From an uncultured Bacteroidales bacterium (GTDB lineage Bacteria > Bacteroidota > Bacteroidia > Bacteroidales > UBA4417): a stretch of DNA of 56,209 nt. The stretch is taken from NCBI GenBank assembly GCA_903913645.1, contig CAIWMA010000268.1, forward strand, positions 1 to 56,209, written 5' to 3'. Of the stretch, positions 13,233 through 51,310 are shown in pieces (positions within the stretch are counted from its first letter, which is position 1; every line of letters begins with the position of its first letter). The notes beneath the pieces were generated by a model, which saw only the letters and a program-made list of their open reading frames with translations, searched no databases and was not told where the DNA came from. The translations under genes and the position numbers were made by a program.

Positions 13233-13373
13233 ATTTTTAATGAGCGTTAAGAAAATGGGAACCTTAGGTTGCCTGGCTCACACGAAAAAATCAAAACATT
13301 TTACTGAAAGTCGTATTAATAGCGTTTTCGTTATTATCAATTGATTTTCAACAAATTAATGGAGGACACTACA

Positions 13374-13517: not shown

Positions 13518-13726
13518 ATTTCAGAATTACATACTTCCTTAATTAGCCTCCAGAACCTGCTTAGTTTTCTTAATCAATTAAATTCGAATTGAATTGATTT
13601 GAGTTACTAGTTTTGGATGTAATTCATCACCTTGTCCACTTTTGTTTGTAAGGCGGGTGTGGATAATTATGCCCTGTAACAGCTAAAACTTAATATTTAA
13701 TAGCCAGGTGATTTACACTTTTAGGT

Positions 13727-35615: not shown

Positions 35616-35931
35616 TAAATATAATTATTATAGTTAATTGGCTTTTGGTTGGCGGATGCGTATTTAATTGTATCTTAGTGGTTTAAAAGAGGTGAAGTAA
35701 AGATGAACTTTTATTAAAACAAGCATTTAACAATTGTTCACACAAGGAAAGGCTGCAAATTTAAGTTAAATAATTATTTTTGCCGTTACCGGAATGCAAC
35801 TTGAGTTGTAAATTAGCAGAATCACTGGGATATCCGGAGTTTCAAATATTCAAAATAGATCAAAGCTCAAGGTTCAAGATGTGGTATTAAAGTCCTTAAA
35901 ACCTAATCCCAAAAGCCTTTAAAGAAATAAA
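35616..35931. other. Divergent promoter region, alaS / M23 peptidase
   Basis: 316 bases without a gene. Minus-strand TAAATTTG at 35756-35763 (for alaS) and plus-strand TATTTTTG at 35775-35782 (for the peptidase) are both exact TAnnTTTG boxes, 11 bases apart, so the promoters are back-to-back or overlapping. A short three-unit heptad repeat lies at 35861-35881. Confidence 0.55.
35861..35881. repeat. Short heptad repeat (3 units)
   Basis: CAAAGCT, CAAGGTT and CAAGATG follow each other with a strict 7-base period in the leader of the M23 peptidase gene. It is the shortest and least certain of the heptad arrays in this window. Confidence 0.4.
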
Positions 35932-36903
35932 ATGGCTAAAATCAGATACCAGTTTAACACCAAATCGCTTAAAATCGAGAAGGTACAGGTTACTATGAAG
36001 GAACGCCTGAAACGGCTTGCCGGTTCAATGGCTTTCGGATTGGTATTTGGCATGGTAGTTATTGTGCTGGCCTACAATTTCATATCATCTCCACGTGAAA
36101 AAATATTGCTGAACGAGCTTGAGCAATATAAACTTCAGTATAAGATCATGAACGACAGGTTGGATAAGGTGCAAAAGGTACTGGCCGATGTGCAGGATCG
36201 CGACGACAATATTTACCGGGTTATTTTCGAATCAGAACCAGTTCCTTCAGAAATCAGGAAGGCTGGATTTGGGGGAGTCGACCGGTATGAACAACTTGAG
36301 CGTATTCCTAATTCGGAGATAGTTGTAAATACAGCCAAACGGCTTGACCAGATAACCAGCCAACTTGTGGTTCAGAGCAAATCGTACGATGAAGTTTTTA
36401 AATTAGCCAAGAATAAGGAAAAACTTATTGCCAGCATTCCGGCTATTCAACCTGTTGATTTTCATGATTTGCGACGCATTGGCTCGTTGTTTGGCTACCG
36501 AACCGACCCATTTTATAAGGTAATTAAGTTTCATGAAGGCATGGATTTTACAGCTGCTATCGGAACTCCAATATACGCTACCGGTGATGGTGTGGTTTCA
36601 GAAGCTGAATACAACAGCGGCGGTTACGGCAATAAGATTATGATAAATCACGGATATAGTTACGAGACAGTCTACGCCCATCTTTCGAAAATAAAAGTTA
36701 AAGTGGGACAACGTGTAAAACGAGGCGAAATTATTGGTTTGATGGGAAATACAGGGAAGTCAACTGCTCCGCATTGTCATTATGAAGTGCATAAGGCTGG
36801 TGTACCAATGAATCCGATTTATTTCTTCTTCAACGATATTACCCCGGCAGAGTACCAGGCGATGCTTGAAATGTCATCGAACCCTTCACAGACGATGGAT
36901 TAA
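35932..36903 (+). CDS. M23 family metallopeptidase, membrane anchored
   Basis: Peptidoglycan endopeptidase of the LytM/lysostaphin type, facing the periplasm. 323 residues: one transmembrane helix at about 32-50 (SMAFGLVFGMVVIVLAYNF), a coiled-coil at about 58-90 (LNELEQYKLQY, NDRLDKVQKVLADVQ), then the peptidase at about 190-300. Zinc ligands are His201 and Asp205 in HEGMDF and His283 in HCHYEV; catalytic His250 (YAHL) and His281 are also present, so it looks active rather than a degenerate EnvC/NlpD-like activator. The stop codon is directly followed by a heptad array and then a MerR-type gene. Confidence 0.92.
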   Translation: MAKIRYQFNTKSLKIEKVQVTMKERLKRLAGSMAFGLVFGMVVIVLAYNFISSPREKILLNELEQYKLQYKIMNDRLDKVQKVLADVQDRDDNIYRVIFESEPVPSEIRKAGFGGVDRYEQLERIPNSEIVVNTAKRLDQITSQLVVQSKSYDEVFKLAKNKEKLIASIPAIQPVDFHDLRRIGSLFGYRTDPFYKVIKFHEGMDFTAAIGTPIYATGDGVVSEAEYNSGGYGNKIMINHGYSYETVYAHLSKIKVKVGQRVKRGEIIGLMGNTGKSTAPHCHYEVHKAGVPMNPIYFFFNDITPAEYQAMLEMSSNPSQTMD

Positions 36904-36987
36904 AACTGGTAACTGGAAATAGGAGACTAGAAACTGGAGACTAGAAACTGGAAATTAGAATTGGACATCCGACATCCAACATCTGAA
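36904..36987. repeat. Heptad array, 12 units
   Basis: Starting on the first base after the M23 stop codon, twelve 7-base units run without a break: AACTGGT, AACTGGA, AATAGGA, GACTAGA, AACTGGA, GACTAGA, AACTGGA, AATTAGA, then ATTGGAC, ATCCGAC, ATCCAAC, ATCTGAA. The first eight follow RACTRGA; the last four drift to ATCCRAC. It ends 36 bases before the MerR-like ATG. Confidence 0.85.
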
Positions 36988-37023
36988 ACCAAAAATATTA
37001 ACCAAAACACCTTATCATACAAA

Positions 37024-37362
37024 ATGGCCCTTCGCACACAACCTATCGGGAAACTTTATTATCGCATTGGCGAGGTAGCTGATATGTTTAAGGTAAATAC
37101 TTCGTTAATTAGGTTTTACGAAAAAGAATTCGATATAATTAAGCCGCATCGCAATAAGAAAGGAAACCGTCTTTTTACACAAAACGATGTGGATCATTTC
37201 CATACGATATTTCATCTGATTAAAGAGAAAGGCTACACCCTGGAAGGTGCAAAGCTACAGCTGAAAGAAAACCGTGCTGTTAACAACGCTCCTGAACAGG
37301 ATATTAAAAACTCGTTGCTCAGGATGAAACGATTTTTACTGGAATTGAGAGAACAACTTTAA
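37024..37362 (+). CDS. MerR-type transcriptional regulator
   Basis: 112 residues from the ATG at 37024. A longer frame opens with TTG at 36961, but its first 21 codons lie inside or beside the heptad array and add no domain, so the ATG is preferred. A MerR winged helix is clear: KLYYRIGEVADMFKVNTSLI, RFYEKEFDIIKPHRNKKGNR, LFTQNDVDHFHTIFHLIKEKG, YTLEGAKLQLKENR. There is no effector domain and only a short C-terminal helix (LLRMKRFLLELREQL), which fits the small one-domain MerR proteins common in Bacteroidota. It may be cotranscribed with the M23 gene. Target unknown. Confidence 0.85.
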   Translation: MALRTQPIGKLYYRIGEVADMFKVNTSLIRFYEKEFDIIKPHRNKKGNRLFTQNDVDHFHTIFHLIKEKGYTLEGAKLQLKENRAVNNAPEQDIKNSLLRMKRFLLELREQL

Positions 37363-37366
37363 GTTT

Positions 37367-38341
37367 TCAGAAATATTTTTTCTCCACAAGGAACTCAGTC
37401 ACATACTCATAAACACCTTCTTCGAGTGAATAAAACTGGGCAGGATACCCGGCAACGCTTTTGAGTTTTGTCATATCGGCTTCGGTGAAATACTGGTATT
37501 TCTCGCGTATATCAAGTGGAGTATCAACAAATTCTATTTTCTCAGGGATTTCGAGTGCTTTAAAAACTGCTTTGGCAAGGTGAAGGAATGCCCGCGCTTT
37601 ACCGGTCCCCAGGTTGTAAAGCCCGGATTTCGGCCTGGTATGCATCATGAAATACAAAACATCAACCACGTCTTTAACATATACAAAATCGCGCAACTGC
37701 ATTCCGTCGGCAAATCCAGAACGGTGCGAACGGAAAAGCTTTACTTCACCAGTTTCGCGTATCTGCTTGAAAGAATGTAAAATAACCGAAGCCATGCGGC
37801 CTTTGTGGTATTCGTTTGGCCCATACACATTAAAAAATTTCATGCCGGCCCAAAATGGCGGAACTTTTTCCTGCTTCAAAGCCCAGATATCGAAATCATT
37901 CTTTGACTCACCGTACGGATTTAACGGACGAAGACTTTCAACAATGGAATGATCATCTATGTAGCCATGCTCGCCCATGCCGTAAGTGGCAGCCGAGGAA
38001 GCATATATTAGCGGAATTCCATATTGTGAGCATGCTTCCCAAACCTGTTTCGAATAGTTCAGGTTAAAGTGGTTAAATATTGAAACATCAAACTCTGTGG
38101 TATCGGTACGGGCTCCAAGATGAAAAACAGATTCTACTTCATCTTTGTGTTTCTGAAGCCAGTTTATAAACTCATCGCGGTGAACGTGGCCTACTATCGA
38201 TTTATGGTCCAGGTTATGGTTTTTAAAAGGATTGCTGAAATCATCAACCACAATAATATTGGTTAATCCCTTGTTGTTGAGTTTGTTTACCATACAACTG
38301 CCAATAAACCCGGCAGCACCTGTTACCACTGTGTATGTCAT
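37367..38341 (-). CDS. rfaD: ADP-L-glycero-D-manno-heptose 6-epimerase
   Basis: Inverts C6 of ADP-heptose to supply the heptose of the LPS inner core; cytoplasmic and NADP-dependent. 324 residues, usual for the family. Extended SDR features: TGAAGFIGS (7-15) for the dinucleotide, VVDDFSNPFKNHNL, the HLGARTDTTE segment typical of HldD, YASSAATYG, and catalytic NPYGESKNDFD (YxxxK). MKFFNVYGPNEYHKGRMASV is also an HldD hallmark. The gene converges on the MerR-like gene with only 4 bases between stops. A TACCTTTG promoter box lies at 38363-38370. Confidence 0.93.
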   Translation of the reverse strand: MTYTVVTGAAGFIGSCMVNKLNNKGLTNIIVVDDFSNPFKNHNLDHKSIVGHVHRDEFINWLQKHKDEVESVFHLGARTDTTEFDVSIFNHFNLNYSKQVWEACSQYGIPLIYASSAATYGMGEHGYIDDHSIVESLRPLNPYGESKNDFDIWALKQEKVPPFWAGMKFFNVYGPNEYHKGRMASVILHSFKQIRETGEVKLFRSHRSGFADGMQLRDFVYVKDVVDVLYFMMHTRPKSGLYNLGTGKARAFLHLAKAVFKALEIPEKIEFVDTPLDIREKYQYFTEADMTKLKSVAGYPAQFYSLEEGVYEYVTEFLVEKKYF

Positions 38342-38362
38342 AATACTTGTTTTTTCAGATTA

Positions 38363-38370
38363 CAAAGGTA
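38363..38370 (-). promoter_or_regulatory. Promoter box of rfaD
   Basis: Minus-strand TACCTTTG, an exact TAnnTTTG match, 22 bases upstream of the rfaD ATG. No good -33 TTTG is seen. Confidence 0.5.
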
Positions 38371-38414
38371 CGGGAAAAGGGCCTAAATAGTGTTAACGAT
38401 TTGAAATAGAAGAT

Positions 38415-38470
38415 ATGAGTGATGAGTTATGAGTGATGAGTTATGAGTGATGAATTATAAGTGATGAGTT
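38415..38470. repeat. Heptad array, 8 units (4 x 14 bp)
   Basis: ATGAGTG+ATGAGTT repeated four times with three substitutions (units 38415-38428, 38429-38442, 38443-38456, 38457-38470). It lies 50 bases beyond the stop of the LURP-one-like gene, between that gene and the rfaD promoter. Confidence 0.9.
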
Positions 38471-38520
38471 AAAGGTATGAGAAGTTTTTTGGGATATTGA
38501 TCTTCCTTTAATGCTTATCA

Positions 38521-39078
38521 TCAATATTTTGGTTTCCAGTTCAAGTCGATTTTTTTTGCTTGAAAACCAATGTTTCCTAAATCAATATTAACAGCGTTAC
38601 CATCGTTGTCGTTACTTGAGAAATTGTCTATTATTAAACAAAACGAAATCAGTAAGTTAAAATTACAATCCTTGTCGGCTATAATTTTGTAGTTGTCACC
38701 CGCAAACCAACTTACTGCTTTTTTGTCCCAGCAGGCCACTTGAAGATTATTCTTGTAAATTGAATATTTTCTGCCGCGATGACCATAAATATCATAAGCA
38801 TCTTTACCATCCTGGCAGTGGTAATGTAGTTTCCAAAATGAATTAGTTCTAAATTCAAGTACATTATTATCCCATTGAGTAATATCATACTTTGCCTTGA
38901 ACCAGGAAAGTCGTTTGCTAATTATCATTCTTGGCATTCCACAATTATTCTCAAATAGATTAACTACAGGGAGTAGATTAAATAATTCGCTTGCTGCAGA
39001 ATGAGTCGGTTGTCCATCTGTGAAAATTTGATATTTGTCACCAATTGAAATTTTCTTTTGATTTATGTCTATTTCCAT
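38521..39078 (-). CDS. LURP-one/tubby-like-fold protein (tentative)
   Basis: 185 residues, cytoplasmic, no signal. It opens INQKKISIGDKYQIFTDG, then LSWFKAKYDITQWDNNVLEF, FWKLHYHCQDGKDAYDIYGH, RGRKYSIYKNNLQVACWDKK, and FAGDNYKIIADKDCN, ending with a hydrophobic helix (LLISFCLIIDNF). This strand order and the KYxIFxxN, AxWxKK and YxIxAD wording resemble LURP-one-related proteins (YxjI, phospholipid-scramblase-like fold). The role in bacteria is not known. It stands alone; heptad arrays flank it on both sides. The family call is from memory of the pattern and is moderate. Confidence 0.6.
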   Translation of the reverse strand: MEIDINQKKISIGDKYQIFTDGQPTHSAASELFNLLPVVNLFENNCGMPRMIISKRLSWFKAKYDITQWDNNVLEFRTNSFWKLHYHCQDGKDAYDIYGHRGRKYSIYKNNLQVACWDKKAVSWFAGDNYKIIADKDCNFNLLISFCLIIDNFSSNDNDGNAVNIDLGNIGFQAKKIDLNWKPKY

Positions 39079-39099
39079 ATTTTGATTTAAAGTTAATGC

Positions 39100-39141
39100 C
39101 CAACTTACATCTTAACACTTAAATCTTATAAATCCTATCTT
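39100..39141. repeat. Heptad array, 6 units
   Basis: CCAACTT, ACATCTT, AACACTT, AAATCTT, ATAAATC, CTATCTT in strict 7-base register; consensus roughly AAaTCTT. The last unit overlaps the stop codon of the alkaline-phosphatase-like gene (39140-39142), so the array is its 3' end in the minus direction. Confidence 0.65.
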
Positions 39142-40771
39142 ATTCAATCTCCACTTCGCTTACAAAAATCCACGCTTTCTGTCCTGCGCAGGGAAGGGCA
39201 GGAGGGCAGGTGCCGATATTTGTTGCTTTAATACGGATAAATTGCGCTCGCAGGTTATCGAATGCTTTCGAAAGCATTACAGGTCCGTCGGGACTGGTTT
39301 CATCTGTTTCGGAGGGGTAATAGGAACTTAACAGTCTAAACGTAATTCCATCGTCGGAAACATAAAATTCGACTGAAGAAGGAAGAAAAATCAGGGAGGA
39401 AGGTAGTTGCAAAACATCTATTCCCAAAGCGTTCACAGGCTTTATTTCCCCTAGGTCGAAGGTAACTTCAAAATCACCACTTTCGTAGCCCATCCATTGC
39501 TTGTTGGTGTAATTCGATGAACCGATAAGCCCGTCGAATAATCCTGAAACTCCTGTTCCGGGATATTTCTGACTTGGTTCGGTGGTTACGCTGGCTGTTT
39601 TAATACCCTGAACAAAAGTATATATGCGGGTTATAATCTGGCTTGAACTGGCAGCGGATAGGCTGACAGCTTTGAGCGTGCAGTTTGTTGCAATGGTAAA
39701 AGGTGAAATATATTTTTTTGAGGATTTGCCAGGTATTGCGCCATCGAGTGTGAAATAAATCTCAGCGTTCAGGCCCGTGGCTGATAATTCTACCTGCTGC
39801 GGACCCTGGAATGCACCATCGGCCAATGAGCACATTGGCTTTGGGACATATTGATTAGGCTTTTGCATTGGTGTTTTTGAAACAAAAACTTCATTTACAG
39901 GCTTTCCAATCCATTCAGTCGGAGCTTTGAGGCCAAGGATTTTTGCAATAGTCGGCGCTGTATTTGCCAGATCATTAGGCGTTTCGAGCAGCACATTCTT
40001 TTTGATACCGGGTCCGCTGATAATCCATGGCACTTCAATTTCGAGCATACTTTCTCCACCATGACCAAACCCGATTCCGCCATGATCAGAAACAATCATC
40101 AAGGTAGTGTTCTGCATCATTTTAGCTTCCTGAAGGCCCGCTACCAGTTTCCCGATTTCGGTATCAATGTCATTTATAGACTGGTAATATTCTTTCGTAT
40201 TGAAGCCTTTGCTGTGTGCGGTTTCATCAGGATGACCGTAATAAATGAAGGTGAAAAGAGGATTTTCTTTTTTAATATAATTCAGGGCTACAGAAGTTAT
40301 CATAACATGGCCTTCGACGAATTGATCCTTACTGATGTATTTCTTATTCACATAAGTGCCAAGCCATTGCCAGTCGTAAAACATAGCAGTAACGGCCTTA
40401 GGCATTTGTTTACGTATGGTAGTGAAAATCGAGTTGAAATATCCATCAGCATCTTTAACTGTAGGATCAAATCCCTGGTTCATTAAGCTCCAGTTGTTTG
40501 ATGTAACACCGTGTTGCTCAGGACCGGCGCCGGATAATATAGTAGCCCAGTTCGGCGCGCTGACCGTTGGCATAACTCCGCGTGTTTTTAAAGAAATAAC
40601 TCCCTGGCTGATTAGCTTGTTGATTTCTGGTGTGTTGGAATATTGAAATCCTTCGGCAGAAACGCCGTCGATGCCAATTAAAATAAGCCGTTTTGCAGCA
40701 GAGGGTTGAGCCGAAAGAGTTATACTAAATATAAATAAGATGACTAGAATAAGTGAGCTGGAGATTTTCAT
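39140..40771 (-). CDS. Alkaline-phosphatase-fold phosphodiesterase with hexosaminidase-type C-terminal domains
   Basis: 543 residues, exported (signal SLILVILFIFSITLSAQP). The catalytic domain (about 27-300) is a type I phosphodiesterase/alkaline phosphatase fold: metal ligand Asp in LIGIDGVSAEGF, nucleophile loop MPTVSAPNWATILSGAGP, YYGHPDETAHSKGF and VSDHGGIGFGHGG. About 310-390 is a CHB_HEX_C-like domain (AEIYFTLDGAIPGKSSKKY), and about 400-543 an F5/8-type discoidin-like module ending KAWIFVSEVEIE. The same two tail domains occur on the GH20 enzyme in this locus. It probably removes a phosphate-containing substituent from a glycan or related polymer; the substrate is an inference. It is the last gene of the glycan locus. 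Confidence 0.85.
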   Translation of the reverse strand: MKISSSLILVILFIFSITLSAQPSAAKRLILIGIDGVSAEGFQYSNTPEINKLISQGVISLKTRGVMPTVSAPNWATILSGAGPEQHGVTSNNWSLMNQGFDPTVKDADGYFNSIFTTIRKQMPKAVTAMFYDWQWLGTYVNKKYISKDQFVEGHVMITSVALNYIKKENPLFTFIYYGHPDETAHSKGFNTKEYYQSINDIDTEIGKLVAGLQEAKMMQNTTLMIVSDHGGIGFGHGGESMLEIEVPWIISGPGIKKNVLLETPNDLANTAPTIAKILGLKAPTEWIGKPVNEVFVSKTPMQKPNQYVPKPMCSLADGAFQGPQQVELSATGLNAEIYFTLDGAIPGKSSKKYISPFTIATNCTLKAVSLSAASSSQIITRIYTFVQGIKTASVTTEPSQKYPGTGVSGLFDGLIGSSNYTNKQWMGYESGDFEVTFDLGEIKPVNALGIDVLQLPSSLIFLPSSVEFYVSDDGITFRLLSSYYPSETDETSPDGPVMLSKAFDNLRAQFIRIKATNIGTCPPALPCAGQKAWIFVSEVEIE

Positions 40772-40959
40772 TTCTTGCTTTCTTTTATTTGTAAAGGTAG
40801 AAGTTTTTTATGAGTTATATTATAAACGAGGAAGCTGATTCCAAAAGTCTAAACCCTAAACGATGTCTAAAATATGGTGAAACTGAGAATTGCTTTTAAA
40901 ATTACCGAAAATCTGCATTTTCCAGCAAACACAATTCCAGATCTGATCTGCATGTGATG

Positions 40960-43206
40960 CTATTTTACAACTATCTCATCGAGGAATAGCCACGAAAGAT
41001 TGCCTGCCGAGGAATGCCACGAAGGCATTTTTTTAGTTGCGGTAACATCAAAGCGGATGTAACGTTTGTTGTTGAAATCTCCTGTAAACAAAAAGTTCCG
41101 TATTGCATCTTCTTTTTTCTGATCTCCTGCAACTTCAGTTGTGCCGGCACTATCCCAGGTAATTCCATCGGCGGAAACCACACAGGTAACTCGTGAAGGA
41201 TGGAGTATCCAGGAATCAGGGGCCCACAACGAACTGATATTGATAGAATGAAATGTTTTGTTTGCTCCCAAATCGAGTGTAATTTGTGGATCAGCATTTT
41301 CCCAACCCAGCCAATTAACTTTAAAATTATTAGAACCACAAACGCCATTGGTTATAGCCGATATATTCCCATCGCTGTATTTTGAATCTGGTCCGGGGTT
41401 GGCGGTTGCTTTTTTTCGAAATGCAATATCATCGCCGATCTGAACATCAATAGAATGGAGCGTTGCATTGTAGTAGGTTTCTGCCGGAAGGTTCGCTTCA
41501 TTCAGGTATTTAACCCCATTTTTAGTACATGTCGAATTAAAATCTTCAAGTGTAGCCTTCATTTCTGGTTTCAAAATGAATTTCCCGCTCTTTTCGCTGT
41601 ACCAGCCACGTGGTCCGAACATATCATTTTTAGCAATCTCCATTATAGCAAATTCCAACGGCAGCCTGCTTACTTTAACTCTCTGAAATATTTCCGGTTT
41701 GCTTACAACAACAGCTTCGGCTTTATCAAATAAAGTGTTGTAAAAAGCAATATTGTCGGCTGAAAGAAAGGATTTATCATGATACACTGGCTCGCCAAAA
41801 ATGTCGAGACGTTCGCCCGATTTTACCAGTTCCGATTCCATGCGGTCGGTATACTTACGAATATAGGGTGCTGCTTCAGCATAATATCCGTTAAGGAAAT
41901 CAGTCTTCACTGAATCGATATTCACATCCGGATTCCAAAGTAGCCGGGCAAGCAAATAGGATTTCAGTTCAGCCATTTCATTACCTTTCGCGGTATTGGT
42001 TTGCTGAAAATGTTGTTTGGCTCCATTGCGGGTCAGAAACTGAATATTAGGTTGCAACACATGCAGATTCGGGAATGGAGAAACCAGGTTTGTAAAATTT
42101 ACAGTGTAATCCCATATGTACAGATCGTGGGTTATCTTTCCCCAATCGGTAATATCTTTTACGAATGATTGACTTGCAGGGTCGGTTTCAATGCTTTTAC
42201 TCCGGTTCAGTTCAATAGTACATAGCACAATCTGTACATTAGCGGCAGGTTTGGTGATTTTTGGTGCTGAGCGCGAAAACTGGTACGCAAGTGTCGAAAT
42301 GGTTTTGTCGGGAAACCTTGCTGCGACCTGGTTTATAAAGCGAATCAGCGGACCCGATGGAGAGCCTTCCTCATCAATAATGGCCCGGCATTTATCACAC
42401 TGGCAATAGGAAAGGTTATCATTCTGACTTACTGACCATATTTTTTTGTCGGGTTGCTTAGTCATGTCTGCAGCCAGTTTATCGTTGACCAATTTTACAA
42501 CATCCGGATTCGACATACAAAGCTGATCGGGGATACGCTTGCCATTCATAAAGGCAAAATATTCAGGATGCGAACTGAAATACGTATCTGGCGGAAGAAT
42601 ATTGCCTAAGGTGTGAACAAAGTATCCAATGGCGTAAACTTCTTCAATATTGTCAAGGCGCATCCAATCCTTATAAGCATCTTTTTGCGAGAATTGCCCG
42701 TAAACAATCCTAAGTGTATTGACCGGTTTATCCGAATAGTTTAAAGGCTTTAGAAAAATAGTCTTATTCTGAGGAACAAATTCCGCATCGGGCGCATAAA
42801 AGCGACACCCAAATTTTTTTTCGAGCAAATCAACAACCCCGTAATAAATTCCTTTATGGCTTCCGCCAACAATACTCAACTTTTGATTTTTCGTTGTAAT
42901 ACGAAACTCATCAGGATCCATTTTTTCATTACTTCCAGGAAATCTATTGGTTAAGCCGATCGAAATTTCTGTTTTGATAGGTTTAGCTTTATCACTAACA
43001 ATAAGTAGCTTACAACCCGATACTTTTACAATATAGTTTTGCAGAAGTTCAGCCGCCTGGTTTTCAATCAGGGTGCCGTTTTCAGGTACTACGATCACGT
43101 ACGAAGAGTGACTGTTTTTTGTAATTTTCAATGGTTTAGCTGCAAAAACACTGTTTGTAAGAGATAAAACAGCGATGAATATTGCCAGGAAATAGTGGGT
43201 TTTCAT
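40960..43206 (-). CDS. DUF4838 glycosidase-like protein with discoidin-like tail
   Basis: 748 residues with a signal peptide (FLAIFIAVLSLTNSVFAAK). The N-terminal part (about 30-140) is a GH67/GH20-like alpha/beta domain (IENQAAELLQNYIVKVSG, GSHKGIYYGVVDLLEKKFGCRFYAP). DUF4838 follows at about 170-480 (SSHPEYFAFMNGKRIP, WSVSQNDNLSYCQCDKC, LYIWDYTVNF, KGNEMAELKSYLLARLLWNP). The C-terminal 150 residues are an F5/8-like module ending LSWLFLDEIVVK, paralogous to those of its neighbours. Distant relatives are alpha-glucuronidase-like; an exo-glycosidase role is inferred, not known. A minus-strand TAACTTTG box lies at 43292-43299. Confidence 0.85.
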   Translation of the reverse strand: MKTHYFLAIFIAVLSLTNSVFAAKPLKITKNSHSSYVIVVPENGTLIENQAAELLQNYIVKVSGCKLLIVSDKAKPIKTEISIGLTNRFPGSNEKMDPDEFRITTKNQKLSIVGGSHKGIYYGVVDLLEKKFGCRFYAPDAEFVPQNKTIFLKPLNYSDKPVNTLRIVYGQFSQKDAYKDWMRLDNIEEVYAIGYFVHTLGNILPPDTYFSSHPEYFAFMNGKRIPDQLCMSNPDVVKLVNDKLAADMTKQPDKKIWSVSQNDNLSYCQCDKCRAIIDEEGSPSGPLIRFINQVAARFPDKTISTLAYQFSRSAPKITKPAANVQIVLCTIELNRSKSIETDPASQSFVKDITDWGKITHDLYIWDYTVNFTNLVSPFPNLHVLQPNIQFLTRNGAKQHFQQTNTAKGNEMAELKSYLLARLLWNPDVNIDSVKTDFLNGYYAEAAPYIRKYTDRMESELVKSGERLDIFGEPVYHDKSFLSADNIAFYNTLFDKAEAVVVSKPEIFQRVKVSRLPLEFAIMEIAKNDMFGPRGWYSEKSGKFILKPEMKATLEDFNSTCTKNGVKYLNEANLPAETYYNATLHSIDVQIGDDIAFRKKATANPGPDSKYSDGNISAITNGVCGSNNFKVNWLGWENADPQITLDLGANKTFHSINISSLWAPDSWILHPSRVTCVVSADGITWDSAGTTEVAGDQKKEDAIRNFLFTGDFNNKRYIRFDVTATKKMPSWHSSAGNLSWLFLDEIVVK

Positions 43207-43291
43207 GATCTGAATGATTACATTTTTTTACAGGAACAAACCAGGCAGAAATTCAATGATTTCTGTAATATAATTTTGCGCCCTGATACCT

Positions 43292-43299
43292 CAAAGTTA
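43292..43299 (-). promoter_or_regulatory. Promoter box of the DUF4838 gene
   Basis: Minus-strand TAACTTTG (forward CAAAGTTA), an exact TAnnTTTG match and identical to the box upstream of the GH20 gene. It gives a leader of about 80 bases. Confidence 0.55.
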
Positions 43300-43370
43300 A
43301 GAGATAAAATCAGCTAAAATATTCATTGGAAACAAACTTAATTTACATAGGAAATCTGAGCAGGTTTTCT

Positions 43371-45683
43371 TTATTCAACCACCAACTCATCGCAAAATAT
43401 CCAGCAAGGCTTACCTTTAAATTCGTGCCATTCGGGAAGTACTTTCGGGCTGTTACCAGATACTTTTATAAACCTGGCTTCTGTTTCCCTAAAGTTGATT
43501 ACTGCTGGTTTAATCTCTTTTTGTGAAGGTGAAGAAGCGTCAAATTTGATGGGCTCCAGGTTTTTCCAGGTCTTGCCATCCAGGGAAGTTGAAAATACAA
43601 CTTCTGTTGGATACAGCACCCAATCGGAAGGACACTTTACAAAATTAAGTTTCAATGAACTGATTTTCGAAGGCTGAAGTAAGTCCACTGTAAATTCAAT
43701 ATCTGTACCTTCATACCCCTGCCATCCTGATTTATAGGAGTTTGTTCCCATTAATCCATCGGTCATAGCCTGGTCGCCGGTACCGGGATATTTAAATGAG
43801 TAAGGTTTGATGATGGTAACGGGTTTTCCCGATGCTTTATTTACGTTTATATCACGTTGGCTGACACTTCCTGCAATTTTGCCTTTGCTGAATAATGCAG
43901 CTTTCACCAGCGTTGACGCAGTTAGATCAAAAGGTTCAGTATAAAGTGCGGAATTAATTGAAGGATCGCTTCCGTCGGTGGTATAGCGGATTTCCATTTT
44001 ATACGTTTCGCTTGAAAGAACCACCAGGTTAAGGTTTTTATCCCGCTGAGTGCTGATATCAACAACAAATGAGCCTTTGCTATACTTTACACCCATATAA
44101 TCCAGCCTTGGAAACTGCTGGTCCAACCTGGAAATAAAATCGTCCCAGTTGCGCCTGCTTTGTTGCGACCAGGCAATTTCCGCGATGGCTATTGCCCGTG
44201 GGAAAGCCATATATTCTACATCAGCGGGTGTTTTGAGGAATTCGGTCCATACGTTGCCCTGTACACCAATAATATGTTGTTCCTGTTCCGGTGTTAGCAC
44301 CGGGGGAATAGGGTTGTAAGAGTAAACTGTTTTGAGGGTGAGATATCCGCCAATTGCTGCGGGTTCAGTTTCCGGATCACCCTGGTAATAATCGAGATAG
44401 CAGTAGTCGACGGGAGTCATAATAGCATCGTGTCCTTCATTGGCTGCATCAATAGCAGCTTGTATTCCCCGCCAGGCCATAACAGTTGCTTCCGGAGCCA
44501 GACCTCCCTCCAGTATTTCGTCCCAGCCAATTAATCGTCGGTTTTTTGAAATAAGGAACTTTTCAATTCGTTTGATAAAATAACTCTGAAGTTCTGCTTC
44601 GTTTTTCAACCCTTCGTTTTTTATCCGTGCCTGGCATTTCGGGCAGGTCTCCCACCTGACTTTCGGCGCTTCGTCTCCACCTATATGAATATAGGTTGAA
44701 GGGAAAATATCCATGATCTCGGTCAATACGTCCTGCATAAAAGTAAAAACAGAGTCGTTCCCGGCACATAGTATATCATCGGCTACACCCCAGATAGTGC
44801 GTACTTCAAAAGGTCCGCCAGCGCATGAAAGCCGTGGATAAGCAGTTAAGACAGCAATGGAGTGCCCTGGCATTTCAATCTCTGGAATTACAGTAATAAA
44901 TTTAGAAGCAGCATATTCAACTATTTCGCGAGCCTGATCCTGGGTATAAAATCCTTCGTAAGGAACGCTGTCAGATTGTAAAGTCTTTCCTATCTGGCTT
45001 CCTTTTCTGATTGAACCCACTTCCGTAAGCTTAGGATATTTTTTGATTTCAATCCTCCATCCCTGATCATCAGTTAAATGCCAGTGGAACATATTCATCT
45101 TGTACATAGCCATGAGGTCGATGTACTTTTTGATAAATTCAACCGGAAACATATGCCTGCCAACATCCAGGTGCATACCGCGGTACGAAAACCGGGGTTT
45201 ATCCTTTATACTCACTACCGGTAACGAATATGATTTTACCCCGGAACTATGTTTCTCAATATCGGCAGGCAAAAGCTGAAGCAAAGTCTGAAGCCCGTAG
45301 AAGAATCCGTTAGCTGTTGTAGCCCTTAAGGTAACATTCGTTTCCGAAATATCAATTGTATAACCTTCTTTACCTAATGTAACATCAGCGCCAAGGGTGC
45401 TAAATACGATTGAATTATTGGTTGGAAAAGCTGCATTATACGACTTTGTTTCGAGTTTCAAACCTGATGAAAAACTGATTTTTTCGCTCAGTAAATCAGC
45501 CATTTCCTGCGTACCGTTGGTTTCATCAACCAGGATGCGTGTTCCATTTTGAATGGTAAATATACCCTTGCCTTCAGTAACCTGCATCGGGACTGGAATA
45601 ATGTGTACTGAACCGGCAGTAAGGCTATTAAGAGATGTTATCACTATTAAAGTGACCAGGAAAAGCTTAGTTTGTAGATTCAT
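43371..45683 (-). CDS. GH20 beta-N-acetylhexosaminidase
   Basis: Removes terminal beta-linked GlcNAc or GalNAc by substrate-assisted catalysis, probably in the periplasm or at the surface. 770 residues: signal peptide (LFLVTLIVITSLNSLTAGS), GH20 N-terminal domain (about 25-155), TIM barrel (about 165-500) with HWHLTDDQGWRIEIKKYP, PEIEMPGH and the catalytic pair Asp337-Glu338 in IHIGGDEAP, then LIGWDEILEGG and VMAWRG. A CHB_HEX_C-like domain (IRYTTDGSDPSINSALY) and an F5/8-type module (about 630-770, ending CWIFCDELVVE) follow. The tail matches those of the phosphatase and DUF4838 neighbours. Confidence 0.95.
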   Translation of the reverse strand: MNLQTKLFLVTLIVITSLNSLTAGSVHIIPVPMQVTEGKGIFTIQNGTRILVDETNGTQEMADLLSEKISFSSGLKLETKSYNAAFPTNNSIVFSTLGADVTLGKEGYTIDISETNVTLRATTANGFFYGLQTLLQLLPADIEKHSSGVKSYSLPVVSIKDKPRFSYRGMHLDVGRHMFPVEFIKKYIDLMAMYKMNMFHWHLTDDQGWRIEIKKYPKLTEVGSIRKGSQIGKTLQSDSVPYEGFYTQDQAREIVEYAASKFITVIPEIEMPGHSIAVLTAYPRLSCAGGPFEVRTIWGVADDILCAGNDSVFTFMQDVLTEIMDIFPSTYIHIGGDEAPKVRWETCPKCQARIKNEGLKNEAELQSYFIKRIEKFLISKNRRLIGWDEILEGGLAPEATVMAWRGIQAAIDAANEGHDAIMTPVDYCYLDYYQGDPETEPAAIGGYLTLKTVYSYNPIPPVLTPEQEQHIIGVQGNVWTEFLKTPADVEYMAFPRAIAIAEIAWSQQSRRNWDDFISRLDQQFPRLDYMGVKYSKGSFVVDISTQRDKNLNLVVLSSETYKMEIRYTTDGSDPSINSALYTEPFDLTASTLVKAALFSKGKIAGSVSQRDINVNKASGKPVTIIKPYSFKYPGTGDQAMTDGLMGTNSYKSGWQGYEGTDIEFTVDLLQPSKISSLKLNFVKCPSDWVLYPTEVVFSTSLDGKTWKNLEPIKFDASSPSQKEIKPAVINFRETEARFIKVSGNSPKVLPEWHEFKGKPCWIFCDELVVE

Positions 45684-45704
45684 TGATGAACGTATGATTT
45701 TTTA

Positions 45705-45737
45705 CAAAGTTAAACTATAGATGCCTGAAAAATGAAA
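45705..45737 (-). promoter_or_regulatory. Promoter of the GH20 gene
   Basis: Minus-strand TAACTTTG (45705-45712) with TTTC (45734-45737) 21 bases further upstream, one mismatch from the -33 TTTG. The -7 box is the same 8-mer as that of the DUF4838 gene. Confidence 0.6.
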
Positions 45738-45767
45738 ATTTAACAAAACGAAGATGCAAATTTCAAG

Positions 45768-45816
45768 AAGCAGTAACTGGTGACTGCTAACTAGTAACTA
45801 GTCACCAATGACCAAA
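45768..45816. repeat. Heptad array, 7 units, same word family as the 36.9-kb array
   Basis: In register: AAGCAGT, AACTGGT, GACTGCT, AACTAGT, AACTAGT, CACCAAT, GACCAAA. AACTGGT is identical to the first unit of the array at 36904, and RACTRGT fits both. It lies 31 bases beyond the stop of the N-acetylhexosamine kinase-like gene and upstream of the GH20 promoter. Confidence 0.8.
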
Positions 45817-45847
45817 ATCATAATTATCTGCAAGTCGAAAATTATTC

Positions 45848-46936
45848 CTAAATCGATTGCATTACAATCTCATGCATTCTATCTGCATTACGTTCCATAG
45901 CTTCAATAAGACGGAACTGAACTTTTGTCCGAACAAGATTATGGTCAGGATAGGAAGTCCGGAAATAGGTGTCTCCGTCAATAAAATCGGTGAGAAACCT
46001 GAGCCCGATTATAAACGTCATAAACCTGGCTGAAAATGCAAGATTGTTAATCTCAACTTCGTTAAGCGTAGACCGGGTGTTTTTCAGAAACCCCCGTGTG
46101 TAAGCTTCATAAATCGGCAGGTTGATATCCACTTTGGTAAGGTCCTTTTCATCTTCATTGGCCATATTTGCTCCAGTGCGTATAGAATCGCCAAAATCGA
46201 ATAAAATACTGCCAGGCATCACGGTATCCAGATCCACTATACACATTGCATGATCGGAACTATCGAACAAAATGTTATTGAACTTGGTGTCGTTGTGCGT
46301 AATTCGCAGGGGGAGTTTGCCTGCTTTGATAAGATCCGGAATGGTAAGCATTTGCTCCGTCCTGGTTTTTACAAATTCAATTTCACTGGCAACATCTTTA
46401 ACCCGGTTCGCCTTATCTTGTGCAATCGATTTATTGAATTTATCCAGACGTTTCTCCAGGTTGTGGAAATCCGGAATTGTATCCGTAAGTCTGTTTGCAG
46501 ACAGGTCGGCAAGCAGCGACATGAAAAGGCCGAAAGCTTTTCCGCCTTCGTAGGCTATTTCTGTGTTTTCAACTACATTGTAGCCGTGGGCATTGCTGAT
46601 AAAGGTATAAAGCCGCCAGTACTGACCATCAGGATCGCGGTAGAAATTCTTCCCGTCAGTACTTCGTATAACTTCCAGAACTTTAAATGCAAGCTCTTTA
46701 TTTTCGACAAGTTTTGATGCCAGGTGACCTGTAACGGCGCAGATGTTATCCATCAGGCCTTCCACATTCATAAAAATGTTATTGTTGATCCATTGCAGGA
46801 AATATCCCGGATGGTCCGCCGACTTTGTGCTGATAAAATAGGATTCATTTATATGTCCTGTTATGTTTTTTTCAAACGCCAGGCATTCTTCACTTATGTT
46901 AAAATGAGATACTATTTCTTTGATGTTCCGTTCCAT
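45848..46936 (-). CDS. N-acetylhexosamine 1-kinase-like phosphotransferase
   Basis: 362-residue cytoplasmic kinase with the aminoglycoside phosphotransferase/choline kinase fold. The Brenner motif is THNDTKFNNILFD with catalytic Asp216, and the metal site is CIVDLDTVMPGSILFDFGDS. The TxxMPG...DFGDxIRxGAN wording matches NahK of bifidobacteria (359 residues), which phosphorylates GlcNAc and GalNAc at C1 with ATP. The old name mucin desulfatase for such proteins is misleading. Placement five bases after a sugar nucleotidyltransferase and next to GH20 supports the kinase reading. Substrate preference is an inference. Confidence 0.8.
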   Translation of the reverse strand: MERNIKEIVSHFNISEECLAFEKNITGHINESYFISTKSADHPGYFLQWINNNIFMNVEGLMDNICAVTGHLASKLVENKELAFKVLEVIRSTDGKNFYRDPDGQYWRLYTFISNAHGYNVVENTEIAYEGGKAFGLFMSLLADLSANRLTDTIPDFHNLEKRLDKFNKSIAQDKANRVKDVASEIEFVKTRTEQMLTIPDLIKAGKLPLRITHNDTKFNNILFDSSDHAMCIVDLDTVMPGSILFDFGDSIRTGANMANEDEKDLTKVDINLPIYEAYTRGFLKNTRSTLNEVEINNLAFSARFMTFIIGLRFLTDFIDGDTYFRTSYPDHNLVRTKVQFRLIEAMERNADRMHEIVMQSI

Positions 46937-46941
46937 GTGTA

Positions 46942-47850
46942 TTACTTCCAGAGTTTTGCAGGGTAAATACCAGCTTTAATGAGTTGAGCAAGTTTTTCGA
47001 TCACAAGAGGTTTGTCCTCTTTGTAAGTGACCCCGAACCATTTGGCATCGCTGCGAAGTACTTTTACGCTTGCTTCTGCGCTGTTAATCAGGATGTCAAT
47101 GGCATAAGGGATATAGAATTCAGCTTTAAGCGAATCGATATTTGCTTTTACAAAATCGCTGAAAATAGCCTCTGTTTGTTTGAAATATTCAGGAGTAAAA
47201 CCCCAGAAATTCATGGAAACCAGTGTTTCAGGGTTCAGGAAAACAGGTTTGCCTTCAGCTTCCTGGTATGCAATTTTGCCTTCAGCATATTGAATATTTG
47301 TGCGTTCGGTTACTGAAACCAAAAGTTCATGTTCATCTTCCTGGCATACCCCGCGTGAAACTGAACCATAATCCGACATAGTGTTTCCAACCTGGTAACC
47401 AACTAGCGAATATTGAGTTTGCGTATCAGCAGTTAATGAATTCAGGTAATCAGCCATGGTTTGGAATGCTCCGGCACCATAAAAGTCGTCACCGTTAATT
47501 ACTGCGAAAGGTTCATGGATAACATCTTTGGCCATAAGCACAGCATGGGCGGTCCCCCAGGGTTTGGTTCGTTCGGGGGAAACTGCCAGGCCTTCAGGAA
47601 TTCTATCAATTTCTTGAAAAACATACTCAACCGGGATATGTGGCTGCAATTTGGCAATAAATAAATCCTTGAAATCCTGTTCAAAGCTTTTACGGATGAT
47701 GAAAACTACTTTCCCGAACCCAGCCCTGATGGCATCGTAAATGGAGTAGTCGATAATTGTTTCACCCGATGGTCCTACCGGGTCAATTTGTTTCAGACTT
47801 CCGTAACGGCTACCCATGCCGGCTGCCAGAACTAATAATGTTGGTTTCAT
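46942..47850 (-). CDS. Sugar-1-phosphate nucleotidyltransferase
   Basis: 302 residues, cytoplasmic. The N-terminal motif LVLAAGMGSRYGSLKQIDPVGPSGETIIDYSIYDA is the nucleotide-binding signature seen in shorter form as LVLAAGMGSRYGSLKQ (6-21). Other marks are AVINGDDFYGAGAF (metal-binding Asp pair), LVGYQVGNTMSDYG and NFWGFTPEYF. No left-handed helix is appended. Its partner five bases downstream is a NahK-like kinase, so the pair could convert N-acetylhexosamine to its 1-phosphate and then to a UDP-sugar. The nucleotide and sugar used are inferred. Confidence 0.85.
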   Translation of the reverse strand: MKPTLLVLAAGMGSRYGSLKQIDPVGPSGETIIDYSIYDAIRAGFGKVVFIIRKSFEQDFKDLFIAKLQPHIPVEYVFQEIDRIPEGLAVSPERTKPWGTAHAVLMAKDVIHEPFAVINGDDFYGAGAFQTMADYLNSLTADTQTQYSLVGYQVGNTMSDYGSVSRGVCQEDEHELLVSVTERTNIQYAEGKIAYQEAEGKPVFLNPETLVSMNFWGFTPEYFKQTEAIFSDFVKANIDSLKAEFYIPYAIDILINSAEASVKVLRSDAKWFGVTYKEDKPLVIEKLAQLIKAGIYPAKLWK

Positions 47851-47866
47851 AGTATTTTAGAATTTT

Positions 47867-49213
47867 TTATTTAGATTTTACTTTATGTCCAATGGTTGCA
47901 TAATAGATTATGAAAAGGTAAATAGGAACCATAATCCATAATGATTGCTGGAATCCAATAGATTGGCCAAGTTTTGCGTAAGTTGGAGGAATAAGCGCAC
48001 CGCCTGCAATACCCATAATAAGAAGGGCAGAACCTATTTTGGTGAACTTACCCAGATTATTGAGAGCCAGGGGCCAGATTGCAGGCCACATCAGTGCGTT
48101 AGCCCAGCCAAGCAAGGTAACAAAGAAGACTGCGTTCGGTAACAAAGGAATATTGAACCCTGGCAGATTATTCAGCCAGCCGAACATAGTTGTAAAAAGG
48201 TTAGTATCCGTAACAGATGAATTTGCAGCACCCAATGCAAATAATGCTCCCAAAATAGCTGAAACTACCAGGGCTTTCGATTGGCTTATAACTTTTGGAA
48301 TCAGAATTATACCAAGAATATATCCAAATACCATGAATGCCATTGTAAATGCAGTAAGTTTCGGAGCGTAGGCCAAATGCAGTGATCTACCGAACTGTGT
48401 AAGGCTGTCGCCTGCCATAACTTCAACACCAACATAAACAAACAAGGTGATGATACCGAGCAGCAGATGGCGAATTTTCAGTGCATCGGGTATTTGTTTT
48501 ACAAAACCTTTCAGTGTTTCATGATCATCGGCTTCGATATCAATTTCATTCGGTAAGGACGAAAACTTCACCAATACCGCAAATACAGCCAGTAATAAAG
48601 CCATGGCGGTGTAAGGGCCAACAATTCTCGAAGCTAATTCGTTAAGCAATGACTCTTTCTGATCGAAAGTAAGCAAGGCCAGGCTGCTTTCGCTGAATTT
48701 TTCCATCCCGTGAAGAATGAGAGCTGTAAGAACCAGCGGACTGAAAACGCCAGCCATCTTATTACAAATTCCCATGATAGCCATACGTTTGGCTGCGCTC
48801 TCGCGTGGCCCGATAATAGTTATAAACGGATTTGTTGCGGTTTGAAGCAGCGCTAAACCTGTTCCTAATACAAATAAGCCTGCAAGGAAAACACCAAACT
48901 GACGCGTATATGCGGCTGGAATAAAGATCAAAGCTCCTAAAGCCATAATCAGTAAGCCTACAAAAACCCCGTTTTTATACCCGATTTTTTTTAATACGAA
49001 TGACGACGGCAAAGCCATAACAAAATAGGCAATATAGAAAGCAAGTGTAACAAGACTAGCCTGGAAAGGAGTCAACTCACACGCTGTTTGCAGAAAAGGC
49101 ATGAGTGAACCATTCAGCCACGTTACAAAACCGAAAATGAAAAACAGCGCTCCGATTATGGATAGCGACATGATGTAATTTTTACGGTCTACTGCCGTTG
49201 GGGTTGTGTTCAT
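47867..49213 (-). CDS. MFS sugar transporter, FucP/GluP-like
   Basis: 448-residue inner-membrane proton symporter with about 12 helices. Family features: LSIIGALFFIFGFVTWLNGS in TM1, LTPFQASLVTLAFYIAYFVM in TM2, MALGALIFIPAAY, GLALLQTATNPFITIIGP and the SAAKRMAIMGICNKMAG loop, and GWANALMWPAIWPLALNNLG. These fit the fucose/glucose-galactose/N-acetylglucosamine (NagP) branch. As the only transporter in the glycan locus it probably imports released GlcNAc, GalNAc or galactose. It is 16 bases upstream of the nucleotidyltransferase gene and likely in one transcript with it. Confidence 0.92.
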   Translation of the reverse strand: MNTTPTAVDRKNYIMSLSIIGALFFIFGFVTWLNGSLMPFLQTACELTPFQASLVTLAFYIAYFVMALPSSFVLKKIGYKNGVFVGLLIMALGALIFIPAAYTRQFGVFLAGLFVLGTGLALLQTATNPFITIIGPRESAAKRMAIMGICNKMAGVFSPLVLTALILHGMEKFSESSLALLTFDQKESLLNELASRIVGPYTAMALLLAVFAVLVKFSSLPNEIDIEADDHETLKGFVKQIPDALKIRHLLLGIITLFVYVGVEVMAGDSLTQFGRSLHLAYAPKLTAFTMAFMVFGYILGIILIPKVISQSKALVVSAILGALFALGAANSSVTDTNLFTTMFGWLNNLPGFNIPLLPNAVFFVTLLGWANALMWPAIWPLALNNLGKFTKIGSALLIMGIAGGALIPPTYAKLGQSIGFQQSLWIMVPIYLFIIYYATIGHKVKSK

Positions 49214-49312
49214 AGACTTTTAGATTATTTGTAAGTAATTGTTTGGATTTCGATTGTTTTCTGGTAAATATGATTTTTTGTAGATTGGGTATTCAATAAA
49301 TTGTAAATCATC

Positions 49313-49354
49313 CTCTATCTCTCTTCACTTTTCCTTTTTAACTTTTCACTATTC
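49313..49354. repeat. Heptad array, 6 units
   Basis: CTCTATC, TCTCTTC, ACTTTTC, CTTTTTA, ACTTTTC, ACTATTC with 7-base register; consensus ACTnTTC. The last unit overlaps the stop codon of the NagB/PIG-L gene (49349-49351), so the array extends from its 3' end towards the transporter gene. Confidence 0.65.
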
Positions 49355-51310
49355 AACTTCGTACCTCACAAACACTTCAATAGCCTCATATTCTGCCATT
49401 CCAAGCTTATCGTAAAGGCGGGCTGTGTTTTTATTCCGTTCTTCGGCGCGCTGCCAGAATTCGCGTTTGTCGGCGCCCATAAACATGGCTCCATCTTTTT
49501 GCGACTGGTGCCTGAAAATGGCATTTCGTTTTATCACAACTTCTTCGGGGCTAAGGGGAACGGCCATATCAACCATTTCAATATCCCATTCCTGCCATGC
49601 TCCGCGGTAAAGCCATACGCGGCAATCCTTCATCCAGTCCTCATTTTTCATACGTTCGAGTGCCTCGATAATAATATCAATGCAAACGCGGTGAGTTCCA
49701 TGAGGATCGCTCAGATCGCCGGCAGCATAAATCTGGTGAGGCATCAACGAACGAAGAAAAATCATAACTATTTGTATATCAGCTTCACCGGCTGGTGCTT
49801 TTTTTACTGTACCGGTTTCATAGAAAGGAAGATTCAGGAAATGCACATTTTCCTCCTGTAGCCCTATATACCGGCAAGATGCCGTTGCTTCACCGCGCCT
49901 TATCGCAGCCTTTACGGCTAAAAGTTCCGAAGGTTCTACGCTGTCTTTTTTCTTGTTCTTGTAAAAATCTGATGTAGTTTCATACAATGTTTCAGCCTTT
50001 GGTTCAATAATATTATAAATTTTTTCGTAGTTACGAACAAAATCCATGTACCGGATGGCATCATCGTCACTAACAGCAATACTTCCCGATGTCTGGTAAG
50101 CAACATGTACATCATGTCCGTGTTCGACAAGGCGGGCAAAAGTTCCACCCATCGAAATTACATCATCATCAGGATGCGGGCTGAAGAGTGCTACACGTTT
50201 TGGAAATGGCAATGCGCGCTCAGGCCTTGTGGCATCGTCAACATTTGGTTTACCTCCGGGCCAGCCGGTAATAGTATGCTGCAAATCGTTAAAAACCCTG
50301 ATGTTTATCTTGCTGAATACCTGGCTTGTAATAAGGTCCGACAACCCAAAATCATTGTAATCGCGTTCAGTAAGTTTCAGCAACGGTTTTCCGGTCTGAG
50401 TACAAAGCCAAAGAACAGCTTTACGAACCATACGGTCGTTCCATTCGCACTGACCAACGCGCCATGGAGCTTTAAAGCGTGTAAGTTCAACAGCAGCCGG
50501 AGGATCAACAATAAAGGTAGTATTGTGATGATTCTGCAGGAAACTCGATGGTATAACATCCGTAACAGGACCTTCAACTGCCATGCCCACAACTTCGGCT
50601 TTACCTTCGCCCCATGCCATCAGGAAAATCTCTTTGGCAGCTAAAATTGTTCCGACACCCATCGTGATTGCAAAATGAGGAACATGTTCTTCACCATTGA
50701 ACGAATCAGCCGCATCATTGCGTGTCAGCCTGTCGAGTGTAACAAGTCGGGTTTTTGAATTGGATGTTGAACCCGGTTCATTAAATCCGATATGGCCGGT
50801 TCTTCCGATGCCAAGCAATTGAATATCAATTCCTCCAGCTTCAGCAATTTTTCTTTCGTAATCTCGGCAAAATGCAGCTACATCATCCTGATCCACACTT
50901 CCGGAAGGGATATGAATATTTTCCGCTTTTATATCGATATGTTTAAAAAGTCTGTCCCACATAAAGTGGTTATAACTTTGCTGATGGTCATGCTCCAAAG
51001 GATAATATTCATCCAGATTGAAGGTGATAACATTGGCAAAACTAACTCCTTCTTTTTTGTGATAGCGTATCAGTTCATTGTAAACCATTAACGGAGTTGA
51101 CCCGGTAGCTAGACCAAGAACCAGGTTTTCACCTGTTTTATATCGTTCGTGTACCAGTTCAACAATCCTGGCAGCTAACTCGGCAGATCCTGCAGCAGCC
51201 GATGGAACAACTTTTACTGCTATTTTTTCGAAACGGGTAACAAATGCATCATCGTTCCACATTGAACTATTGGGTTTCGACGAATATCCTTTTATATCAG
51301 CTAATTTCAT
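49349..51310 (-). CDS. Glucosamine-6-phosphate deaminase-like / PIG-L deacetylase fusion
   Basis: 653-residue two-domain cytoplasmic protein. The NagB/sugar isomerase domain spans about 25-320 (LGLATGSTPLMVYNEL; Asp100 in FNLDEYYPLEHDHQQSY; LLGIGRTGHIGFNEPGS). The PIG-L/LmbE domain spans about 370-640 (LFSPHPDDDVISMGG with His379; SDPHGTHRV with His537 and His540). Relative to E. coli NagB, Asp72, His143 and Glu148 are kept (100, 173, 178) but Asp141 is Thr171. The fusion is typical of Bacteroidota and may combine deacetylation with deamination of GlcNAc-6-phosphate, standing in for NagA plus NagB; this is inference. It lies 12 bases after GH2. Confidence 0.9.
   Translation of the reverse strand: MKLADIKGYSSKPNSSMWNDDAFVTRFEKIAVKVVPSAAAGSAELAARIVELVHERYKTGENLVLGLATGSTPLMVYNELIRYHKKEGVSFANVITFNLDEYYPLEHDHQQSYNHFMWDRLFKHIDIKAENIHIPSGSVDQDDVAAFCRDYERKIAEAGGIDIQLLGIGRTGHIGFNEPGSTSNSKTRLVTLDRLTRNDAADSFNGEEHVPHFAITMGVGTILAAKEIFLMAWGEGKAEVVGMAVEGPVTDVIPSSFLQNHHNTTFIVDPPAAVELTRFKAPWRVGQCEWNDRMVRKAVLWLCTQTGKPLLKLTERDYNDFGLSDLITSQVFSKINIRVFNDLQHTITGWPGGKPNVDDATRPERALPFPKRVALFSPHPDDDVISMGGTFARLVEHGHDVHVAYQTSGSIAVSDDDAIRYMDFVRNYEKIYNIIEPKAETLYETTSDFYKNKKKDSVEPSELLAVKAAIRRGEATASCRYIGLQEENVHFLNLPFYETGTVKKAPAGEADIQIVMIFLRSLMPHQIYAAGDLSDPHGTHRVCIDIIIEALERMKNEDWMKDCRVWLYRGAWQEWDIEMVDMAVPLSPEEVVIKRNAIFRHQSQKDGAMFMGADKREFWQRAEERNKNTARLYDKLGMAEYEAIEVFVRYEVE

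Follow-up and report, generated by a model that had tools for sequence, protein, structure and literature searches.

G-rich strand polarity of 7-base intergenic arrays beside gene ends in a Bacteroidales genus

We analyzed the intergenic tandem arrays with a 7-base period that occur in a 56,209-nt stretch of Bacteroidales DNA, here called the window, which is one complete contig, G000:C268, from a draft genome of 5.7 Mb and 593 contigs, together with the corresponding arrays of related genomes. The main finding was a handedness of these arrays with regard to the genes beside them. All of the 84 merged arrays with just a single gene end closer than or at 20 bp (57 on the stop side and 27 on the start side, from eight genomes) were G-rich and C-poor when read outward from that gene. 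A polarity without exception in 84 arrays, with many unrelated words, two unit sizes and a spacer between tRNA genes, argues for an origin in the formation or growth of the arrays, rather than in G-quadruplexes or translation alone; it may be a sign that a process running in one direction underlies this common kind of bacterial repeat, and an old puzzle thereby becomes testable. The explanation that we tentatively favour is that the arrays are polar satellites, born by slippage, whose growth is halted by genes.

The genus sample consisted of contigs from the window genome and from eleven other genomes of the same genus, mostly drafts, covering about one-tenth of the window genome and smaller fractions of its relatives. 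Genes were called using an in-house hexamer script, unchecked against a standard program, and segments with a lag-match score below 12, segments with more than half their length inside a called gene, and spacers shorter than 30 bp were excluded from the counts. Among the intergenic segments of the genus scoring at least 12, period 7 was the most common (125 segments), followed by periods 8 (40), 11 (14), 6 and 9 (6 each) and 10 (2), with none of period 5. When considering only the 406 kb of window-genome contigs that had not been chosen for repeats, a score of at least 14 was reached by 15 segments of period 7 and 8 segments of period 8, with long periods also being present (11 segments of period 21, for example), whereas one simulated sequence having the same statistics gave a single segment over periods 4–24, at period 20. 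With the window included, the sample of its genome contained 24 merged arrays in 462 kb, or about 52 per Mb, and three arrays is thus the number to be expected in the window; at this density, the confinement of the arrays to 35.8–49.4 kb proposed in a preliminary description of the window could not be upheld. The arrays, being intergenic head-to-tail repeats of a 7-base unit, belong to the heptamer class. Their words were diverse, including ATGAGTT, AGTGAAA, GTTAATA, GATGTCG, GAAGTCG, TTTAGGA and ATTGCGG as well as octads such as TAATGTGA, and the 7-base register can survive a switch of word, as in the window array starting at 36904. Outside the genus, periods 7 and 8 also led in 72 other Bacteroidota loci (29 and 20 segments in 1.07 Mb), with 3 period-7 segments found in 460 kb of sampled genomes from seven other families of the order, and 4 in 39 kb of three further samples (L113–L115). 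Long arrays were seen at the ends of contigs C30, C131 and C433 of the window genome, and arrays therefore probably break assembly and are undercounted. Spacers of genome G015 (L103:11354-11678 and 12640-13785) carried, beside heptads, runs of words of about 10 bases and of 21–22 bases (GTTTCAAAG, TTCAATGCTTCGCG). A dispersed motif of the CTGAGCGNAGCCGAAG type, by eye resembling a repetitive extragenic palindrome (REP), was seen in several spacers (L281, L292 and L172:555-731), once inside an array region.

Counted as segments within 20 bp, the outward strand was G-rich and C-poor in 59 of the 60 on the stop side and in all 28 on the start side, and omitting the contigs picked for showing the pattern left 61 of 61 merged arrays with the same polarity. 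It was independent of word and gene direction and held for all gene orders with enough cases, including the 24 of 24 abutting segments that lacked any GG or CC. The sole array touching both of its neighbouring genes, at 17968-18018 of locus L138, was left out of the 84 and constituted an exception, being C-rich outward from the stop and G-rich outward from the start. At 21–100 bp the counts for and against the polarity were 17 versus 18 from stops and 18 versus 5 from starts. Any explanation must account for a rule that depends on the gene end and not on the direction of the gene, the word or the unit length, and whose effect at stops wanes beyond about 20 bp. Windows of 25 array-free bases taken after stops had no bias (72 strongly G and 79 strongly C of 897), showing that the stop-side handedness belongs to the arrays, whereas array-free leader windows were biased and G-poor (231 versus 27 of 1009); background composition as the cause would thus fit the leaders and fails at the trailers. 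Minimal period-7 repeats on the stop side (scores 6–8) had no clear polarity, at 6 versus 5, so that the rule is seen with established arrays alone. The scan of 23 tRNA genes revealed one array-bearing spacer, located between tRNA-Tyr and tRNA-Gly (L140:11518-11618), with largely octads starting 5 bp past the former gene and ending 4 bp before the latter. Its words, of the TAATGTGA type after tRNA-Tyr and of the CACATTA type before tRNA-Gly, had the same handedness as arrays at protein genes. We also considered spacers as inverted repeats with arms sharing words. Individual examples were suggestive, but this was dropped as a rule because the sharing between spacer halves was modest and occurred also in array-free spacers; in 12 spacers with two arrays, the similarity of the two arms barely exceeded that of arms taken from separate spacers (p 0.06).

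The placement of the arrays was determined for gene ends facing spacers of at least 60 bp, counting arrays at most 20 bp away and leaving out the pattern-picked contigs. An array abutted 43 of 670 ends on the stop side, the figure for the start side being 18 of 768 (odds ratio 2.9, p 0.0002). In the segment count given above, 48 of the 60 at stops lay at 0–5 bp from the gene edge. Per kb of spacer, the number of arrays was 1.08 between codirectional genes on the plus strand, 0.85 between those on the minus strand, 0.82 for convergent and 0.20 for divergent genes. The preliminary description had placed the window arrays 0–50 bases past stop codons, and this 3' preference, one of the checks it had proposed and here run in part, was confirmed in the sampled contigs of the genus; for the three clear window arrays the position near a stop is partly automatic, since each of them lies between codirectional genes. 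An artefact of gene calling was rejected, because stop codons are fixed by the reading frame and just 3 of 129 merged arrays were found in called genes, the remainder being intergenic, which also shows that reversed arrays were not masked as coding. The stop codon as a seed of the heptad unit was likewise rejected, with identity at lag 7 in 2 of 42 cases, and is possible for octads, where 5 of 12 were identical at lag 8.

Within the window itself, lag-match scoring over periods 2–24 gave high-scoring matches solely at periods 7, 14 and 21, all of them multiples of 7. Using 500 Markov simulations of its 27 spacers (6212 bases) as the null, a score of at least 16 was reached by three arrays in the window and by none in any simulated set, at least 8 by 7 segments versus a simulated mean of 0.7, and at least 6 by 13 segments versus a mean of 4.5. 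This composition-matched control, also suggested earlier and run in part, gave far fewer period-7 signals than the real sequence, and the excess indicates that the weak window segments are probably real as a group, at least some of them. Five arrays and a minimal one had originally been listed, of which those at 36904, 38406 and 45773 stood, whereas those at 39100, 49313 and 35861 were individually near chance. The array at 36904-36983 (plus strand, score 22.4, above all 500 simulated spacer sets) begins at the first base past the stop of the peptidase M23 gene and runs from G-rich AACTGGA-type words into C-rich ACATCCG-type words toward the start of the MerR-type gene, with the 7-base register kept. 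The array of ATGAGTK at 38406-38469 (plus strand, score 26.2) is G-rich and without C on the plus strand. It is flanked by the gene at 38521-39078, from whose stop it is 51 bp downstream, and by a conserved region preceding the epimerase gene, whose start lies 64 bp beyond the array. The third, of the GTAACTG type at 45773-45815 (score 16.2), has G and C near balance and no strand assigned, and is found 32 bp past the stop of a kinase-type (APH-type) gene. Among the weak stretches, those at 39101-39128 (minus strand, score 7.8) and at 35857-35878 (three units, no strand assigned, score 8.4) were not above chance alone. A third weak stretch, at 49318-49355 (minus strand), continues into the stop codon of the NagB/PIG-L gene, with 49318-49346 scoring 6.6 within the spacer and 11.2 when extended into the last bases of that gene, not significant alone. 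A further one at 12765-12798 (no strand assigned, score 11.6) is located outside 35.8–49.4 kb.

Comparison with related species revealed differences at several conserved slots. The epimerase slot carried one and the same word, repeated about 2–3 times in G013, 4 times in G003 and 8–9 times in the window. After the M23 stop, G005 has CTGGTAACTGG where the window has roughly eight units of this kind. An AGTGAAA/AGTGAAT array followed the gene at L121:4994-6289 in G000, G013, G003 and G010, that is in four of the nine genomes having this gene, for which two further genomes gave no match. A convergent slot carried ATTGCGG arrays in G000 and G015, whereas G003 had no array there and G013 showed none over the first 560 of its 1040 bp. 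Other slots in the relatives held different words (GTTCCAT in G009, GTTTCTT in G015 and GGCAGTA in G001) or none. Copy number thus differs between related genomes at the epimerase, M23 and L121 slots, and these in-place differences fit the slippage suggested in the preliminary description. Across these species, arrays have grown in place, been gained or lost, and switched word.

In the mechanism that we favour, the arrays would be non-coding satellites with units of 7, less often 8, bases. Short seeds would appear in spacers and then lengthen there, with replication slippage as the simplest cause. With one strand being G-rich and C-poor, the gain of units and the takeover of spacer DNA, through its removal or overwriting, would proceed preferentially toward the 5' side of that strand. 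The advance would halt at DNA protected by selection, whether protein genes or tRNA genes, and arrays would consequently accumulate at gene ends, their G-rich strand pointing outward, presumably serving no dedicated function. Stop-side flanks would tolerate them best, start-side flanks less and divergent, promoter-only spacers least, and this graded tolerance would give the appearance of a position just past a stop codon. We favour polar growth because of the pile-up at 0–5 bp, the G skew of the 5' flank of free arrays (+0.39, as compared with +0.13 on the 3' flank; swap test p 0.0002, n=63), the slightly purer units of gene-proximal thirds (20 versus 8 of 33) and the order of facing runs, in which G preceded C in 21 cases and C preceded G in two. 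Further support comes from the polarity being present at both gene ends, the unbiased array-free trailers, the tRNA spacer and the growth of the same word at three slots.

Several observations weigh against this mechanism. Growth is deduced from comparing species, with no mutation event observed, and the skewed 5' flank can also mean old, decayed units, which would put growth on the other side. The start-side polarity could stem from the composition of leaders alone. Outward A/T skew was +0.13 on the stop side and −0.31 on the start side, so that the two ends are not strictly equivalent. The polarity within 20 bp was weaker in the 72 other Bacteroidota loci than in the genus (22 segments for, 6 against and 2 equal, of 30), and cyanobacterial plasmids gave 2 for, 3 against and 3 equal among 8 segments only.

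A serious rival, which we consider possible though not likely, is selection at the RNA level, whereby slippage would yield arrays of both hands, with G-poor, unstructured ones being kept in leaders, where translation starts, and C-poor ones in trailers, for example through avoidance of Rho loading or pairing. This would agree with the G-poor array-free leaders, with start-side arrays that also track the A/T composition of leaders, and with a stop-side rule fading beyond about 20 bp, a distance roughly that of a ribosome footprint. However, array-free trailers showed no avoidance of C, making the stop-side rule array-specific, and the same layout is found between two tRNA genes, albeit in one spacer only. 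We find it unlikely that the arrays are protein-binding or regulatory, acting as elements of the 3' untranslated region or as insulators. Some words do persist at a given slot, such as AGTGAAA and ATTGCGG, but the words vary from slot to slot within a genome and from species to species at a given slot, or are missing there; a pure 3' untranslated element, as had also been suggested, is hard to combine with the same kind of array turned round before start codons and beside two tRNA genes. Still less probable is end-healing, in which breaks in spacers would receive telomere-like G-rich additions at both 3' ends before being joined. The prevailing G-then-C order of facing runs and the 5' to 3' outward course of the G-rich strand would follow from such healing, whereas the in-place copy-number differences at conserved slots and the same-word ancestral seeds at two slots would not, random break points should give no pile-up at 0–5 bp, and the words of facing arrays were hardly more alike than chance (n=12). 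G-quadruplex elements, proposed for the heptamers of Xanthomonas and Nostoc in a text with the same placement rule (PMC4692102), are a most improbable general cause, contradicted by the 79 of 87 abutting segments without four GGG tracts (8 having them), 53 without four GG tracts and 24 without GG or CC, all of which obeyed the rule.

The kind of repeat studied here is known, and its rule is already in print for quadruplex words; what appears new is the polarity across other words and in Bacteroidales. With telomere-like repeats the resemblance is limited to the direction of the G-rich strand. Short tandemly repeated repetitive (STRR) heptamers of cyanobacteria were reportedly described by Mazel et al. 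in 1990 as short intergenic arrays, and are in that respect like those of the genus. Period 7 also led in the cyanobacterial plasmids that we sampled (26 segments, and 7 of period 8, in 11 stretches of 4 records totalling 550 kb), and their polarity showed no clear direction. In these stretches (L303–L313), intergenic repeats among periods 4–12 were almost only of period 7, then 8, with words (ATGAGTA, AATTACG) close to those of Bacteroidales. Cyanobacterial heptamers are also mentioned in passages of PMC4692102 that do not use the STRR name. That article, by Rehm et al. (2015), covers GGGAATC in Xanthomonas and GGGGA(C/T)T in Nostoc PCC 7120, lying nearer to the next 5' neighbouring open reading frame (ORF) irrespective of ORF orientation, mostly between aligned ORFs and under-represented between divergent ones, with lengths varying between species. 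There, the G-rich strand is sense after stops and antisense before starts, as in our arrays, whereas each genome has one quadruplex-forming word; the Bacteroidales genus has many words, most of them unable to form quadruplexes, and in addition octads and a tRNA spacer. The preliminary description had known of no Bacteroidota equivalent, yet MacGregor (2015) reports TAACTGA direct repeats in marine Beggiatoaceae, Cyanobacteria and five Bacteroidetes (PMC4679880). In F. litoralis, 12 of 14 such sets are forward before starts and one is reversed directly after a stop (PMC4679880). Those repeats resemble ours in being intergenic heptamers adjoining start codons and differ in having one word, a mostly start-side position in Beggiatoaceae, few sets per Bacteroidetes genome and a proposed role in translation. 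The window words, of AACTGGA, ATGAGTK and GTAACTG types, are not TAACTGA, an identity that was rejected. Slippage had been suggested by Mrazek et al. in 2007, as reported in PMC4679880. In a SPADE survey of 7006 prokaryote genomes (PMC6344855), heptamers outnumbered every other class of intergenic tandem repeat across a broad spread of prokaryotes, and nothing pointed clearly to what they do; they are like ours in being intergenic heptamers, with no strand polarity given in the passages concerned. A search limited to open-licence PMC texts brought up no paper that states the placement rule for other words or for Bacteroidota. It is conceivable, though doubtful, that bacteria harbour polar self-advancing satellites in general, where a replication-linked step of 7–8 bases would add units one-sidedly and replace spacer until reaching a gene, the heptamers of Xanthomonas, cyanobacteria, Beggiatoaceae and Bacteroidales all being its products.

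The genes adjoining the window arrays are a mixed set of ordinary, housekeeping-type genes; phase-variation repeats, by comparison, switch a surface or contingency gene through their copy number. The stop of the peptidase M23 gene (35932-36903, plus strand, PF01551, E 1.1e-35) abuts the first array, downstream of which lies the MerR-type regulator gene (37024-37362, plus strand, PF13411, E 3.7e-18). The NAD-dependent epimerase gene (37367-38341, minus strand, PF01370, E 5.4e-37) was the anchor of the synteny search, and its closest named records are metagenome-assembled genomes of uncultured Bacteroidales. The APH-type phosphotransferase gene (45848-46936, minus strand, PF01636, E 5.4e-12) is upstream of the 45773-45815 array. 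A LURP-one-like label given earlier to the gene at 38521-39078 was not confirmed, as no Pfam family matched its product at E 0.001. Rfam 15 gave no matches at gathering score in the window. Terminator-like sites in 35600-49500 were no more numerous than in shuffles, with none listed within arrays, and the minus strand of 38400-38475 showed no fold, so that the arrays were rejected as intrinsic terminators with a stem-loop and T run. Of the other arrays, L135 did not fold (z 0.1), the array at 36901 folded weakly (z −1.8), the array of L074 folded (z −4.1), and a hairpin was predicted for the minus strand of 45765-45850 (z −2.4). We also observed that the phosphodiesterase-type (39140-40771) and GH20 (43371-45683) genes of the window have C-terminal Fn3_assoc/CHB_HEX_C_1 domains in common.

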